Source of the DNA: Candidatus Rokuibacteriota bacterium | GTDB lineage: Bacteria > Methylomirabilota > Methylomirabilia > Rokubacteriales > CSP1-6 | Length of the DNA stretch: 64,000 nucleotides | NCBI GenBank assembly: GCA_003220495.1 | Contig: QHSP01000037.1 | Span: 1-64,000, forward strand | Direction of reading: 5' to 3' | Shown here: positions 1,184-9,934 of the stretch, one piece after another | How positions within the stretch are numbered: position 1 is the stretch's first letter | How the letters are laid out: each line of letters begins with the position of its first letter | Made by a program: the position numbers and the translations under genes | Notes under the pieces: model-generated | What the model was told of the DNA's origin: nothing | What the model saw: only the letters and a program-made list of their open reading frames with translations | The model's database searches: none

Positions 1184-3132
1184 ACACGATCCTGGTCGTC
1201 ACGTCCGACGACGCGCTGCGGGCGCGTCTCATGGTCGCCCTCGGCGAGCATTCCGTCTTCACGGCTCCCAACGACACCGAGGCGCTGAAGACGCTGCGGC
1301 TCATCGAGATCGACGTGGTCGTCCGCGGCGCGGGCACTTCCCGCGACGTCGAGTCGTTCGTCGCGCGGGTGCGGGCGATCGCGCCTGCGGCCCTCACCAT
1401 CACCATCGGTGTGACGGCCGAGGACAGCGAGACCGCCGACTTCACCCTGCCCGTGACGTTCACGCAGCGCGAGCTGGACGGTGTGCTGCGACGGGTGATC
1501 GACAAGCTCCACCTGACGCGCGAGATCACGGCACTGCGCTCCAGTCTCGGGCCCGAGGCGCCGGGCACGACGGTCGGCCCTGACGAGCCGTGGGAGGGCG
1601 CCGCGTTCGCCCGCGTCCTCAAGGAATTCACGCGCGCGTTCGCCGCGGGATTCGATCTGCCCCGCGCGCTCGAGATGTTCCTCGACGCGATCCGCGAGCT
1701 CGTGCGGCCCACGCGCATGGCGCTGCTCCTGCCCGACGCGGATGCTCAGGAATATCGCGTCGCGACCCATCGGGGGCTGGCGCGACCGATCGTCGAATCG
1801 GTACGCCTCCACGCCGGACAAGGTCTGGCTCGCTGGCTCGCCGCCCAGGGCCGGCCGGCTCGACTCCACGACCTCACCGACCCGGAGATCGTGCGCGAGC
1901 TCAAGCTCCTCCAGAGCGTGCTCGCCGTGCCCCTCCTAGCCCACGGTGAGCTCGTCGCGATCCTCACCGTCGGGCAGCCGGTCGTCGGCTCGATGTATCG
2001 ACGCGGCGAGACCGAGACGCTCTTCGATCTCGCGTCGCACCTGGCCACGGCCATCCGCGACATCGCGCTCCACAATCAGCTCGAGCGTCAGCAGCAGTTC
2101 AGCGAGCGCATCCTGGCCCACATGTCGAGCGGCGTCATCACCATCGGGCGCGATCAGCGCATCGGCACGATCAACCGCCGGGCCGAGGAGATTCTCCAGC
2201 TCTCGTCCGGCGAGGTCCTCAAGCAGGACCTCCGCGCGCTTCCGTCGCCGCTGGGCGACATGCTCTTCGACACGCTGAGGACGGGACGCACGGCGGGCCG
2301 CCACGAGATCCAGCTCGCGCTGCGCGGGCTCTGGCTCGAGGTCTCGACCTATCCCGTGCGCGGCGAGGACGGCGCGCCGCTCGGCGCGGTTCTCGTCTTC
2401 GAAGACCTGACGGCGCAGAAGGAGCTCCTGACGCAGAAGCGTCAGGTCGAGCAGACCCAGCTCCTCACGCGCGTGGTCGCGCGGATCGCCGACGAGATTA
2501 AAAATCCGCTGGTGTCCATCAACACCTTCATCGAACTCATCGGTGAGCGCTACGACGACCCGGATTTCCGGCGGCATTTCTCGTCCGTCGTCCGTCGGGA
2601 CGTGCGCCGACTGGTGGAGGTGTTCGAGAAACTTGCGGGGCTCGTGACGGAAGGTGAGTTAAACTTCACGACCGTGGATGTGCACACGGTCGTCGACGAC
2701 GTGGTGACCGCGATCGAGCTCGTCGACGAGGTGCCGGCCAGACCGCTCCAGCTCGATGTGACGCGCGAAACGACACCGCAGGTCGTGAAGATCGATCCGG
2801 CTCAGCTCCGAAAAGCCCTCTCGTACCTCATCTGGTATCTGGCGCACAACTCGCCTCCGGATCAGGCGCGCGTGTCGGTGTCGGTCGCGCGGCACGCCGA
2901 GCGCGAGGGCGGCGAAGGCGTGCGGATCCTGGTCGGCTCGCGCACCGCGGCGGTGCCGGCCGAGAAGCTGCACCGCGTGTTCGACCCGGTGCAGATGGTC
3001 CAGGAGAGCCTGATCGACGTGGGACCGGCCGTGAGCCAGCGTCTCGTGGAAGCCGTGGGCGGGCAGCTCGCGGTCCGTCAGGGGCGCCACGAGCTCCACT
3101 TCCTGGTCACGCTCCCGCTCGCGAGCCCATGA
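1180..3132 (+). CDS. Degenerate REC-GAF-PAS-histidine-kinase-like protein (probable pseudokinase)
   Basis: ATG overlaps upstream TGA (ATGA); N-term REC-like fold, GAF, PAS, then RIADEIKNPLVSI H-box-like segment without the His and degraded ATPase motifs. Confidence 0.8.
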   Translation: MNTILVVTSDDALRARLMVALGEHSVFTAPNDTEALKTLRLIEIDVVVRGAGTSRDVESFVARVRAIAPAALTITIGVTAEDSETADFTLPVTFTQRELDGVLRRVIDKLHLTREITALRSSLGPEAPGTTVGPDEPWEGAAFARVLKEFTRAFAAGFDLPRALEMFLDAIRELVRPTRMALLLPDADAQEYRVATHRGLARPIVESVRLHAGQGLARWLAAQGRPARLHDLTDPEIVRELKLLQSVLAVPLLAHGELVAILTVGQPVVGSMYRRGETETLFDLASHLATAIRDIALHNQLERQQQFSERILAHMSSGVITIGRDQRIGTINRRAEEILQLSSGEVLKQDLRALPSPLGDMLFDTLRTGRTAGRHEIQLALRGLWLEVSTYPVRGEDGAPLGAVLVFEDLTAQKELLTQKRQVEQTQLLTRVVARIADEIKNPLVSINTFIELIGERYDDPDFRRHFSSVVRRDVRRLVEVFEKLAGLVTEGELNFTTVDVHTVVDDVVTAIELVDEVPARPLQLDVTRETTPQVVKIDPAQLRKALSYLIWYLAHNSPPDQARVSVSVARHAEREGGEGVRILVGSRTAAVPAEKLHRVFDPVQMVQESLIDVGPAVSQRLVEAVGGQLAVRQGRHELHFLVTLPLASP

Positions 3133-5426
3133 GCACGACCACCACCGCGCTCGGGCGCGTTCTCGTCGTCGACGACGAGCTGGGTCCCCGCGAGTCGTTG
3201 CGGATGCTGCTCAAGCCCAGCTACGCGATCCAGACGGCGGAGAACGGACGCACGGCCCTCGATCTGCTTCGTCGGTTCCAACCGGACGTCGTGATCATGG
3301 ATATCAAGATGCCCGAGATGGACGGGCTCGAGCTGCTCCGGCACGTCAAGCGCGCCGACCCGTCGATCGAGGTCGTGATGATCACGGCGTACGCGTCGCT
3401 CGAGACCGTCCGCCACGCGCTCACGCACGGAGCGTTCGAGTACCTCATCAAGCCCTTCTCGCGCCAGGATCTCGAGGAGGTCGTCCATCGCGCGCTCGTG
3501 CGCCGGCAGGCCGACCTCGGCACCCGCGGCCAGGTCGCGCGGCTCGTCGAGGAGATGCGCAAGCTCTCCGCCAAGACCCGGGAGCTCGAGGAGGCCGAGG
3601 CCACCGAGCAATCCCTCCGCGTCACCCAGCTCTCGATCCTCCGGGAGATCTCGCGGACGATCGTCGGCCACCTCGACCCCCAGAACGTGACCGCGGCAGT
3701 CACCGAGCAGCTGCGGGCGGCCCTCGGCTACGACAGCGTCGAGATCGTCCCCGAAAACCCGGTGAGCGTCGACAAGAACGATGCGTGCGTCGTGGCGTGC
3801 GTCATCCGCGACATGCAGGGGCCGCTTGGACACCTCGTCATCGACAACCGGTCCACGCGGCGCGCGATCGATCCGCGAGAGCGTGAGCTCCTCGAGATGC
3901 TCTCGGAGTACCTGGCGATCGCCCTGCGTAATTCCCGTCTCTACGGTGAGATCGCCGACACGAAGCAGCGGCTCGAGGAGACCATTTCGTCCGCCGGCGA
4001 GGCCATCATCTCGGTTTCGCCCGACGATCGGATCGAGAAGTGGAACCCGGCGGCCGAGCGCATCTTCGGCTCCAGCGCCGCCCAGGCGATCGGCCGCCCC
4101 ATCACGGACATGCTCCCGCGCGGAGACTACGCCGACGCCCGACGGCGACTGGCCGAGGGCACGCCGCGGCACGAGTTCCAGACCACGGCCACCGCGGGGC
4201 AGCCGCGCCCGGTCGAGCTGGCAGTGACGCTCTCGGCGCTGCACGGACGCCATGGCGGGCTCGAGGGGCTGATCGCGATCGTCCGCGACATCACGGCCCA
4301 GCGCGAGGTCGAGAAACAGCTGCACCAGTCCGAGAAGCTCACGGCCCTGGGACAGCTCGCCGGCGGCATCGCGCACGACTTCAACAATCTCCTCCAGGCG
4401 ATCCTCGGCTACGCCCAGCTCATGAAGCAGAGCCTCCACGACTCTGAGTTCGTCAGCCGCTCGCTCAACGTTGTCGAGGCCGCGGCCGTCGACGGCGCCG
4501 AGACGGTGCGCCGCATCCAGCAGTTCGCGCGCCTGCGTCCGGACGGTCCGCCGGTCGGCGTGGACGTGAACCAGAGCGTGCACGACGCCGTGGCGATGAT
4601 CCGCCCGCGGCTCGAGGAAAGAATCGCGCGCGACAACCGGCCGCTCGACCTCCGGCTCGACCTCGGGACGATCGAGACGATCAACGGCCGCCCGGCGGCG
4701 CTGACCGAGCTGATGACGAATCTGCTCCTGAACGCGCTCGACGCGATGCCCGACGGCGGCACGCTCACGGTGTCGACGCGAGGCGAGCCCGGCCGCACCG
4801 TGGCGCTGACGGTCACCGACACCGGCGTCGGCATGCCCGAGGCCGTCCGCCGGCGCATCTTCGAGCCGTTCTTCTCGACCAAGGGCGAGGGCGGCTCGGG
4901 ACTCGGCCTGTCGATGGTCTACGCGATCGTGCGGCGACACGGCGGCGACATCCGCGTCGACAGCGAGCCCGGCCGCGGCGCCACCTTCACGCTCACCTTC
5001 CCGGTCGCGAGCGAGCCCGTGGGCACCGAGCCCGAGTCGGCGCTGCCGCGGGCACGCCGGCCGGCCCGCGTGCTCCTGGCGGACGATGACCCCAAGGTGC
5101 TCGACACCTTGACCGAGATCTTGCGGAGCGTGGGCCACACCGTCACCGCCGCCGCGAGCGGCGGCGCCGCGCTCACCGCCTACGGGCCGGGGCGCTTCGA
5201 TGTGGTGCTGACGAACCTCGGGATGGCGGGGATGAACGGCTGGGAGCTTGCCGAGCGGGTCCGCCGGGTCGATGCGGACATCGCGATCCTCTTGATCACG
5301 GGCTGGGGGCTGCGCGACGAGGAGCACGGGCGGCTGAAGGCGCTCAAGATCCGCAAGTGCCTCTTCAAGCCCGTACGTCCGGGTGAGCTAGACTCAGCGA
5401 TCCAGGACGCGCTCGCCCCGGCCTGA
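3129..5426 (+). CDS. Hybrid REC-GAF-PAS-HisKA-HATPase-REC sensor kinase
   Basis: ATGA overlap with upstream gene; VVDDE..MDIKMPEMDG receiver, GGIAHDFNNLLQAI H-box, GSGLGLSMVYAIV G2, C-terminal receiver. Confidence 0.9.
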   Translation: MSTTTTALGRVLVVDDELGPRESLRMLLKPSYAIQTAENGRTALDLLRRFQPDVVIMDIKMPEMDGLELLRHVKRADPSIEVVMITAYASLETVRHALTHGAFEYLIKPFSRQDLEEVVHRALVRRQADLGTRGQVARLVEEMRKLSAKTRELEEAEATEQSLRVTQLSILREISRTIVGHLDPQNVTAAVTEQLRAALGYDSVEIVPENPVSVDKNDACVVACVIRDMQGPLGHLVIDNRSTRRAIDPRERELLEMLSEYLAIALRNSRLYGEIADTKQRLEETISSAGEAIISVSPDDRIEKWNPAAERIFGSSAAQAIGRPITDMLPRGDYADARRRLAEGTPRHEFQTTATAGQPRPVELAVTLSALHGRHGGLEGLIAIVRDITAQREVEKQLHQSEKLTALGQLAGGIAHDFNNLLQAILGYAQLMKQSLHDSEFVSRSLNVVEAAAVDGAETVRRIQQFARLRPDGPPVGVDVNQSVHDAVAMIRPRLEERIARDNRPLDLRLDLGTIETINGRPAALTELMTNLLLNALDAMPDGGTLTVSTRGEPGRTVALTVTDTGVGMPEAVRRRIFEPFFSTKGEGGSGLGLSMVYAIVRRHGGDIRVDSEPGRGATFTLTFPVASEPVGTEPESALPRARRPARVLLADDDPKVLDTLTEILRSVGHTVTAAASGGAALTAYGPGRFDVVLTNLGMAGMNGWELAERVRRVDADIAILLITGWGLRDEEHGRLKALKIRKCLFKPVRPGELDSAIQDALAPA

Positions 5427-5428
5427 GG

Positions 5429-5512
5429 TCAGGCGCGCTTCATCGGGCGGCCGCAGCAGATCTTCTGCGCCATCGCGACCTTCCCGCACTTGGCGCAACG
5501 AAATCCGGCCAT
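5429..5512 (-). CDS. 27-aa desulforedoxin/zinc-ribbon-like microprotein MAGFRCAKCGKVAMAQKICCGRPMKRA
   Basis: GGAGG just upstream of ATG; C-x2-C-x9-C-C-G pattern; 21 nt downstream of thiolase stop. Confidence 0.65.
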   Translation of the reverse strand: MAGFRCAKCGKVAMAQKICCGRPMKRA

Positions 5513-5533
5513 GTCCCCTCCGTGTCGTCGCGG

Positions 5534-6679
<1,146 letters not shown>

Positions 6680-6790: not shown

Positions 6791-7999
6791 CTATCGGTCG
6801 ACGCGCCGCGGATGGCCCTCCAGCGACGTGTCCAGACCGCTACTGCCGCTGAGCACACTGAACGGAGGCGCACCGGGGATGGACGGTCGCGGCGGCCGAA
6901 CTGGCGTCGCCGGTGGTCCGCTTTCGCTCGGGGCCGCTGGAGCCTCTGGCGCCCGTCCGGGTGTCTCGGGGACGATCTCAGAGCGAGCCACCGACGGCGC
7001 GGGCTTAGGGGGAGCCGCGGGTAACGCGTCCGATGGCGATGCGGCCGAGCTCGGCGCGAGCGGGCGCGGGGCAGGCTCTAGAAGCACGTCGGGCTCCCGG
7101 GAACGGAGAATTCGCGGCCGCGGCTCCTGAGCCGGCGGCGCCGCAACGCGGTCGCCCGTGGGAGCGCGGATCTCTCTCCTCGGCGAGGGCGGTCGCGGGG
7201 CCGGCGGCAGGCTCGCCACGCCACTCGGCGGGATATGCTTCGCCGGGCTCGATTCCGCCGGCGGCCTCGTCAAGTCTGGCGCGGGTTCGGCAGGCGCTGG
7301 CGCCGATAGAGTCGGCGCAGGGCTCGGCGCCTCGATTCGCTCTTCGAATATGGGCGCGCGCGCGTCGACCCCGGGGCTGCTGAGCATCGAATAGCCCTTG
7401 AGCACGAGCGGTATCGACATTAGCACGATGGCGACACCGATCGGGCGAGCGAGCGGCCTGCGATTGCCGAGAGCTCTCGCGCCTGTCGACGGAGTCGTCG
7501 CGGACGATTCTAGGGGTTGCGCGTCACCTTCGGTGGGGGGGTTTGGGCGCTGGCATCCCGGGCACTCGGCAAACGCCGCTCGAAGCGGTGCGGAGCACCC
7601 GGTCGCGTGGTGCCAGTTCTGCCCGCATTCCGAGCAGACGTGAAAATGCGGACCGGAGCGCGCTCCCGGCATCGGCTCGGAGCCGGGCTTGGGAAAACAC
7701 CAAGGACAGCACGCGGCAAGACTGTCCAGACAGTGGCCTGCGTGCTCCCAGTCTCCGTCGCACATGTTGCAGTAATGCGAGTGGAGCTCCCTGACCAGCA
7801 AGTCGTTCCGGCCGCAGCACACGGGACAGTCCTCGGGACCGACGAATGGCAGATCGCCCGAGATCGCGTCGTAGCTGGGAATGCCGCACGTGGTCGCGGC
7901 GGGTCCGCCGTGCTGCCAGCGATGACCGGCCGTGCACCGGTGCGGATGCTCGGCGCGCGGCGGCTCCAGCTCGCTTGGCGCGATTAGTTTCGTTCCCAT
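6791..7999 (-). CDS. Zn-ribbon/Cys-rich N-terminus, single TM helix, Pro/Ala-rich C-terminus; unknown function
   Basis: Repeated C..C/C....CP.C motifs (CNMCDGDWEHAGHC..CCPWC; CSECGQNWHHATGC..CPGC), hydrophobic PIGVAIVLMSIPLVL, long Pro-rich tail. Confidence 0.6.
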   Translation of the reverse strand: MGTKLIAPSELEPPRAEHPHRCTAGHRWQHGGPAATTCGIPSYDAISGDLPFVGPEDCPVCCGRNDLLVRELHSHYCNMCDGDWEHAGHCLDSLAACCPWCFPKPGSEPMPGARSGPHFHVCSECGQNWHHATGCSAPLRAAFAECPGCQRPNPPTEGDAQPLESSATTPSTGARALGNRRPLARPIGVAIVLMSIPLVLKGYSMLSSPGVDARAPIFEERIEAPSPAPTLSAPAPAEPAPDLTRPPAESSPAKHIPPSGVASLPPAPRPPSPRREIRAPTGDRVAAPPAQEPRPRILRSREPDVLLEPAPRPLAPSSAASPSDALPAAPPKPAPSVARSEIVPETPGRAPEAPAAPSESGPPATPVRPPRPSIPGAPPFSVLSGSSGLDTSLEGHPRRVDR

Positions 8000-8014: not shown

Positions 8015-9934
8015 TCAAATTCCGGCGCGCCGGAGACCCTCACGCACGGCCTCGTCCGTGGGCCCGAGCTGCTGGGCCCTTCGAAATGCCGCCCGCGCGT
8101 CGTCCTTCTGGCCGAGCTTCAGGTAGCACCAGCCCATTCCCACCTGATACTGGTGCGAGTCCGGCGCGGCCAGGCTCGCCCGGATGAACATCGCCAGAGC
8201 CTCTCGATGCCGCTCCAGGTAGTACAGGCTCCACGCCATCTTTCCCCTCAAGGTCGTGACTTCCGGAGGCTCGGCGCTCAGGAGGCGCCGCGATCCCTGA
8301 AGGGCCTTCTCGAGCGGAGGAAGGGCGGCTTCGTAGTTGCCGCGCTCGAACTGAGCCGAGCCCAGACCGTTCAAGGCGTCGACGTAGTCGGAATTTCGGT
8401 TCAGCGCGGACTGAAACGCTGAAGCGGCGAGCTGGTACCGGCCCAGGCGGAGCCGACTCCATCCGAGACCGTTGGAGAGACCCTCCCAGGTCGGCTGACG
8501 CCGGAGTGCGGTCTTGAACGAAATGGTCGCCCCGCGGAAATCTCCGAGGAAATACTCGGACCACGCGAGCAACGCCCGGGCCTGGTCATGCTCGGGGTAG
8601 AGCGCGGTCGCCTCGGCAAGCTGATCACGTGCCTCCTGGTACTTGCGCTCCTCGAGCAGGGCGCTGCCGCGCGCGAAGCTCGCCTCTGCCTGCATGCTCC
8701 GGCGGAAGCCTTGAAAGAATCCAGGAGAGGACGTCAGGAGCACGGACGAAGCTGACGGCGACCGAGCCGGGCGATCGGCCGCCTCGTCCACTGCTTCCCA
8801 CGCGCGCTCCGCCGCGGCGCGCGCACGATTCGACTCGCGCCGGACCACGACGTCGTCGGGAGTTGGGCTATTCGCCGCCCGGGCGGCTGCCTCGGCGGCC
8901 CGCGACGCTTCGCGCGACGCATCAGCCGCGGTCTGCGCGGCATCCTTCGACGCGTCTGCTATGGCGCTCGCAAGATCTAGCCGCATGCCCGATTGGTCTT
9001 CTCGAGCCTGCTCCGCTCCATTGCGCTTCGCCGCGTCAGCGGCGAGCGCGGCACGCCGTGCGGCTTCGGCGGCGCCTTTTGCGGCGGCCTGCGCGGCGCG
9101 CCGAGGCTCTGAAAGGTCTGAGGTCCTCTCGACGCGTGCGCTGCCGGTGCCGCTGCTTCCAACGCTCGTGCCTGCCGCGCTGACGCCGTCCGGACCAGGG
9201 CCGCCGCTCGAGCCTGGCGTGCCGGTGCCGACGCCTGCGGCCGCGCCACCGGACCCGACTGAGCCACTGACGCCCGCTCCGCCAGCGCTGGCCCCGGCGG
9301 CAGCCCCGCCGGTCCCGACTGCGCCGCTCACGCCAACTCCGCTCGCGCCGACTCCGGCGGCAGCCCCGCCGGTCCCGACTGCGCCGCTTACGCCGACTCC
9401 GCTTACGCCGGCGCCGGCCGAAGCCCCGCCGGTCCCGACTGCGCCGCTGACGCCAACCCCGCCGGCGCCGGCCCCGGCGGCAGCCCCGCCGGCCCCAGCT
9501 GCGCCGCTCACGCCAACTCCGCCGGCACCGGCCCCGGCGGCAGCCCCGCCGGCCCCGGCTGCGCCGCTCACGCCAACTCCGCCGGCACCGGCCCCGGCAG
9601 ACCCGCCAGCGCCCCCAGCACCTGCGGCACCGCTGACGCCGACCCCACCGACGCCCGCCCCGGCAGACGCGCCGGCCCCGCCGGCACCGGCCGCACCGCT
9701 GACGCCGGCCCCGCCGACACCGACTCCAGCCGAAGCGCCCGCACCGCCCGCCCCCGCGGATCCCCCGACTCCAACCCCGGCAGTACCGGCGCCCGCGGCC
9801 GCCCCGCCGGCGGCACCCGGACCCAAGGCGAGGGCGATGCTGATGTCAGAGACGAGCTGCACCGCCGCGACGAGCGGCACGGCGAGCAGAACGAGCGCGA
9901 GGGCGACGATGTACGATCGCGACGAGCGGATCAT
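8015..9934 (-). CDS. TPR-repeat protein with N-terminal TM/signal and long Gly/Ala/Ser/Val-rich tandem repeat
   Basis: MIRSSRSYIVALALVLLAVPLVA then GAGGAAAGAGAGGVGVSGAA-type repeats, Ala-rich helical region, C-terminal TPR (YVDALNGLGSAQFERGNYEAALPPLEKAL). Confidence 0.75.
   Translation of the reverse strand: MIRSSRSYIVALALVLLAVPLVAAVQLVSDISIALALGPGAAGGAAAGAGTAGVGVGGSAGAGGAGASAGVGVGGAGVSGAAGAGGAGASAGAGVGGVGVSGAAGAGGAGGSAGAGAGGVGVSGAAGAGGAAAGAGAGGVGVSGAAGAGGAAAGAGAGGVGVSGAVGTGGASAGAGVSGVGVSGAVGTGGAAAGVGASGVGVSGAVGTGGAAAGASAGGAGVSGSVGSGGAAAGVGTGTPGSSGGPGPDGVSAAGTSVGSSGTGSARVERTSDLSEPRRAAQAAAKGAAEAARRAALAADAAKRNGAEQAREDQSGMRLDLASAIADASKDAAQTAADASREASRAAEAAARAANSPTPDDVVVRRESNRARAAAERAWEAVDEAADRPARSPSASSVLLTSSPGFFQGFRRSMQAEASFARGSALLEERKYQEARDQLAEATALYPEHDQARALLAWSEYFLGDFRGATISFKTALRRQPTWEGLSNGLGWSRLRLGRYQLAASAFQSALNRNSDYVDALNGLGSAQFERGNYEAALPPLEKALQGSRRLLSAEPPEVTTLRGKMAWSLYYLERHREALAMFIRASLAAPDSHQYQVGMGWCYLKLGQKDDARAAFRRAQQLGPTDEAVREGLRRAGI
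9240..9815. repeat. Imperfect 60/66-bp tandem repeats encoding 20/22-aa Gly-Ala units
   Basis: Recurrent gcgccgctcacgccaactccgccggcaccggccccggcggcagccccgccgg-type units, approximate boundaries. Confidence 0.85.

Follow-up and report, generated by a model that had tools for sequence, protein, structure and literature searches.

Soil bacteria of the order Rokubacteriales encode a 27-residue protein with four cysteines that is a genuine gene under natural selection on the protein. We consider it likely that this microprotein is desulforedoxin-like and binds a metal, a judgment that does not extend to the more specific role as a zinc-dependent adaptor considered below. The gene was found in a stretch of 64,000 nucleotides, called the window here.

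A Cys4 microprotein gene downstream of a thiolase gene

The microprotein gene, stop codon included, occupies positions 5429..5512 of the minus strand and encodes MAGFRCAKCGKVAMAQKICCGRPMKRA; it was recognized by its open reading frame, its orthologues, and purifying selection. The ATG is at 5512 and the TGA at 5431-5429. As a sequence-only reading of this DNA had claimed, the cysteines (residues 6, 9, 19, and 20) form the pattern C-x2-C-x9-C-C-G, a GGAGG Shine-Dalgarno sequence lies 4 nt 5' of the ATG (5517..5521, minus strand; a sequence feature with comparable sites in many orthologues), and 21 nt separate the ATG from the stop codon (5536-5534) of the thiolase gene upstream. The 381-aa thiolase (acetyl-CoA C-acyltransferase; 5534..6679, minus strand) was identified by Pfam Thiolase_N/Thiolase_C and NCBIfam TIGR01930, and its proposed cotranscription with the microprotein at this locus is supported and probable. 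The microprotein stop codon lies 2 nt from that of a convergent response regulator-PAS-histidine kinase gene (3129..5426, plus strand), which has the same position in several relatives; we regard it as the downstream boundary and do not think that it is part of the microprotein function. The length of the microprotein is below the reach of usual gene finders.

Two further reading frames were observed nearby on the minus strand. Upstream of the thiolase, a 402-aa reading frame (6791-7999) encodes many Cys/His pairs followed by a hydrophobic stretch and a Pro-rich tail, and a Pfam search with it gave no match. At 8015-9934, a signal-peptide-like start is followed by long Gly/Ala repeats (GAGGVGVSGAAGAGG) and C-terminal TPRs.

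The microprotein is conserved and under purifying selection

With a profile built from the orthologues, we found the microprotein in 47 of the 57 genomes of its Rokubacteriales family (29/35 when only good-quality genomes are counted), nearly always as a single copy and with E values down to about 1e-16 per genome. Because the same reading frame recurs in so many genomes at such E values, it stands far above chance. The orthologues are stand-alone reading frames of 27 to 29 aa, with the exception of one genome, G056, where they have 47 to 48 aa. G056 carries three of these longer paralogues (L091, L092, and L093), which share the Cys motif and have a hydrophobic tail conserved around EGI[VI]WPL[MI]WL, and a small signal-peptide-like reading frame overlaps or directly follows each of them.

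A lack of conservation of the Cys pattern at homologous loci had been named as refuting the sequence-only reading, and the pattern held: C6, C9, C19, C20, G21, P23, and M24 are invariant in 37 of 37 aligned members, all of which keep C-x2-C-x9-C-C within the family pattern [FY][KR]-C-x2-C-x9-C-C-G-x-P-M-[KR]. The alignment (A3) leaves out L031, a second copy in genome G016 in which a tyrosine replaces the first cysteine. The members fall into subtype A, comprising MAGFRCAKCGKVAMAQKICCGRPMKRA and close forms, and subtype B, with the sequence MADQFKCxKCGKTSPKxxxCCGxPMKKS. Averaged over all pairs, so that related genomes are counted many times, pN/pS was 0.245 in subtype A, calculated from 38 sequences, and 0.36 in subtype B. 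In seven genomes the protein sequence is the same although the genes differ at many synonymous sites, the flanking DNA is unconserved, and another reading frame contains 42 stops. The recurrence, the invariant cysteines, and both pN/pS values thus bear out the claim of a real microprotein.

Outside the home family, the profile detected the microprotein in a single genome, which belongs to a second family of the order; the remaining 37 genomes of the phylum gave no match. No relatives were found in the 151, 17, 101, and 1 genomes sampled from four other phyla or in the viral contigs searched. Plasmids yielded no match to the window protein and, with a subtype B protein as query, three matches at E 8-9, which we take as chance. 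A pattern scan of contigs returned Rokubacteria only, which is no proof of absence elsewhere because the pattern had been fitted to Rokubacteria. A restriction of the family to Rokubacteriales is likely but not proven, since the other phyla were sampled as 270 genomes from four phyla. In the open-access literature, we found no paper describing this family; the order itself (phylum Methylomirabilota) is as yet uncultivated (PMC8780371).

Genomic context differs between the two subtypes

In 30 genomes, a subtype A gene follows the orthologous thiolase gene. The gap ranges from -1 to 266 nt and is at most 30 nt in 23 of the 30 linked loci; in three genomes the start and stop codons overlap (TGATG, gap -1). 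Upstream of the thiolase there is often a sulfur-carrier-like gene together with a TtuA-like gene, both named by eye, which were seen neither at unlinked microprotein copies nor in the window. Neighbor genes in general were called from GC position and by eye.

Subtype B genes are not beside the thiolase, and no neighbor is common to their loci across genera. Most have a GGAGGTGA-type Shine-Dalgarno sequence, and a strong hairpin (z < -2.5) directly 3' of the stop codon was present at 10 of 11 subtype B loci, whereas none of 39 subtype A loci had one and the rate in background windows was 0.7%. Since no T-run was seen after most of these hairpins, that they are terminators is something we infer. 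The strong Shine-Dalgarno sequence and the hairpin after the stop codon give subtype B genes the appearance of small independent transcription units. Five of them (L040, L044, L045, L047, and L049, from genera g16 and g18) have a sigma-54-like -24/-12 motif, TGGCnnG-n5-TGC, 60 to 92 nt before the start codon; 1 to 7% of other windows at these loci also match the motif, which the remaining subtype B genomes lack, so it is suggestive only.

The thiolase is a common neighbor but not a requirement

The sequence-only reading had asked whether the microprotein recurs after thiolase genes. The 30 linked genomes show that it does, but ten genomes contain the microprotein and no orthologous thiolase (at a threshold of E <= 1e-130). 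Five genomes have the thiolase and no microprotein, and across the 57 genomes the association of the two was not significant (p = 0.11). In genome G017, the last ~21 thiolase codons (63 bp, 95% identity to a related genome) remain shortly before an intact microprotein gene. A similar thiolase remnant occurs in G029, where the other side carries a complete thiolase gene. The association fails to explain the microprotein because many genomes carry it without the thiolase or far away from it; the thiolase is a common neighbor, not a requirement.

These observations bear on whether the microprotein could serve the thiolase as an accessory subunit or as a regulator, comparable to the DUF35-type zinc-ribbon subunits with which some thiolases are partnered. 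The close and partly overlapping gene arrangement favors such a role, as does a weak match to a benzoylsuccinyl-CoA thiolase subunit. We nevertheless hold it to be quite improbable, given the genomes with only one of the two genes, the insignificant association, the location of subtype B elsewhere as its own unit, and the intact microprotein gene beside the G017 remnant. The obligate pairing that characterizes a DUF35-type partner is not seen for the microprotein, and to our knowledge DUF35 ribbons have no adjacent-Cys pair. A thiolase-specific role was rejected as the main explanation on the strength of the ten thiolase-less genomes, the G017 remnant, and the p value. The microprotein would instead act in a general cell function and not specifically in the thiolase reaction.

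Desulforedoxin is the nearest known relative by profile and predicted fold

The desulfoferrodoxin N-terminal domain, PF06397, was matched weakly by 36 of 37 members. The window copy scored 18.8 bits against a cut-off of 23 (for TIGR00319, 14.2 against 36.05 bits), the best-scoring relative reached 23.0 bits, exactly the cut-off, and a scan of the family genomes gave no PF06397 match above it. In a profile search of the PDB, desulfoferrodoxin 1dfx ranked top (E 7.6e-4), and desulforedoxin 1cfw aligned to positions 2-25 (E 0.08). The second knuckle of the microprotein, the invariant CCGxPM (C19 C20 G21 P23 M24), has its counterpart in CCGEPMK of 1dfx. HHalign of the microprotein profile against a profile of canonical desulforedoxins (three from the same phylum and one from another) gave 92% with a single 6-residue gap, while the negative control, the zinc ribbon of TtuA-like proteins, gave 14%.

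An AlphaFold2 model was made from window positions 5432-5521 and thus has 30 residues, including three from upstream codons (GGD) foreign to the protein; its mean pLDDT was 87.9. The best three Foldseek matches among 350,542 PDB chains were desulfoferrodoxin, desulforedoxin, and superoxide reductase. These matches are weak (E 0.51, TM 0.62-0.65) compared with those of a canonical desulforedoxin control (E 0.02, TM up to 0.94).

Desulforedoxin sites are defined in the literature as CXXCX15CC (SORGOdb, PMC3116461), and because the microprotein has x9 instead of the defining x15, we name it desulforedoxin-like and not desulforedoxin. The proposed likeness therefore holds in that desulforedoxin is the nearest relative by profile and predicted fold; it does not extend to the loop length or to the Pfam and NCBIfam cut-offs. 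Judging from the alignments and the model, the microprotein is probably derived from desulforedoxin by deletion of six residues from the loop that joins the two Cys pairs; convergence on CxxC...CCG in so short a protein is possible. Most likely, the four cysteines in the two knuckles hold one metal. The predicted arrangement is a single ion, M(SCys)4, in a two-knuckle mini-fold that may act alone or as a dimer.

Positive charge and the absence of rubredoxin and canonical desulforedoxin favor a possible adaptor role

Nearly all subtype A proteins have seven Lys/Arg and zero acidic residues (net charge +7), and subtype B proteins have a charge of +4 to +5. Rubredoxin (PF00301) was absent from 57 of 57 family genomes at E <= 0.001. 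Superoxide-reductase-like PF01880 proteins were present in 31 of the 57; the microprotein occurred in 25 of these 31 and in 22 of the 26 others (p = 0.74). The exported PF01880 protein of this genome (L123, G000:C153:37014-37295), read by eye, apparently has no Cys ligand. The microprotein stands alone, neither fused to PF01880 nor co-occurring with it, and the idea of a detached superoxide-reductase centre I donor was rejected in view of the lack of association across the 57 genomes.

We hypothesize that a structural Zn(II) site presents a strongly basic face, which would dock on an anionic partner, either RNA or the ribosome or an acidic protein. We give this zinc-stabilized basic adaptor about an even chance. 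A zinc adaptor or nucleic-acid binder is favored over an electron carrier because of the positive charge and because the family is without rubredoxin and canonical desulforedoxin. A metal buffer or another role ranks after both the adaptor and an iron redox carrier.

An Fe(SCys)4 electron carrier would be a miniature rubredoxin or desulforedoxin that feeds an oxidoreductase and replaces the absent rubredoxin. The desulforedoxin-type CCGxPM motif and the fold match fit this role, and the absence of rubredoxin and canonical desulforedoxin from the family would leave a place for it. Typical rubredoxins, however, are acidic and the microprotein is strongly basic, it shows no co-occurrence with PF01880, whose representative in this genome seems to have no Cys ligand, and subtype B has no conserved neighbor across genera; we consider the carrier unlikely, if the strongest of the rivals. 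Somewhat less likely still is a convergent zinc-ribbon microprotein unrelated to desulforedoxin, similar to the haloarchaeal C(P)XCG proteins and acting as an adaptor that binds RNA, DNA, or protein. The basic charge would suit it, and there are weak matches to the HVO-2753-like small zinc finger and to the Rpo12 and TiaS ribbons; these mostly cover the first knuckle only, the CxxCG half, and the CCGxPM half is desulforedoxin-like. That the four cysteines hold a [2Fe-2S] cluster is very improbable. FhuF provides the precedent, as it binds such a cluster through vicinal cysteines in a mirror-image motif, C-C-x10-C-x2-C, with nearly the same spacing (PMC8068687), but the Cys order is reversed relative to FhuF, and the proteins matched by fold and profile are mononuclear FeS4 proteins.

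With regard to the metal itself, AlphaFold2 is unable to tell whether such Cys sites bind one, and among 14 C(P)XCG micro-proteins from haloarchaea, five held no zinc (PMC11241148).

Discussion

Taken together, these results can be read, tentatively and with somewhat less than even confidence, as pointing to an order-level microprotein family, smaller than any other natural metal protein of the desulforedoxin type that we know of and consisting of little beyond its two metal knuckles. In part of the group it would be an independent monocistron, strongly translated and terminated, and in another part it would be coupled to a thiolase; it would serve a general function not yet described. The family adds a conserved gene to an uncultivated lineage and indicates that conserved gene content exists below the usual annotation length limit. 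It also suggests how small a natural tetrathiolate metal fold can become, at 27 residues with a loop shortened from 15 to 9. The peptide is short enough for chemical synthesis, so that its choice of metal, dimer formation, and redox behavior are directly testable.

Among known proteins, rubredoxin (PF00301) shares with the microprotein the four cysteines and the presumed M(SCys)4 site; its second pair is C-x2-C, which the microprotein lacks. The haloarchaeal zinc-finger micro-proteins are likewise tiny stand-alone Cys4 proteins (PMC11241148), but they are defined by two C(P)XCG motifs, while the microprotein has one CxxCG and, as its second motif, CCG. Canonical 38-aa desulforedoxins from family f8 of the same phylum (L085, L086, and L088) have four cysteines and CCG, as the microprotein does. 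Unlike it, they have the full x15 loop and score above the Pfam cut-off (31.7 bits), and the microprotein model did not pick them up. Desulforedoxin and the desulfoferrodoxin N-terminal domain (PF06397, TIGR00319; PDB 1dxg, 1dfx) have C-x2-C-G ... C-C-G-x-P-M and small size in common with the microprotein. It differs from them in being neither attached to nor associated with superoxide reductase, in its loop of 9 rather than 15 residues, its length of 27 to 29 aa, and its net charge of +4 to +7, and in its scores under the curated cut-offs, apart from the one relative at the Pfam value.
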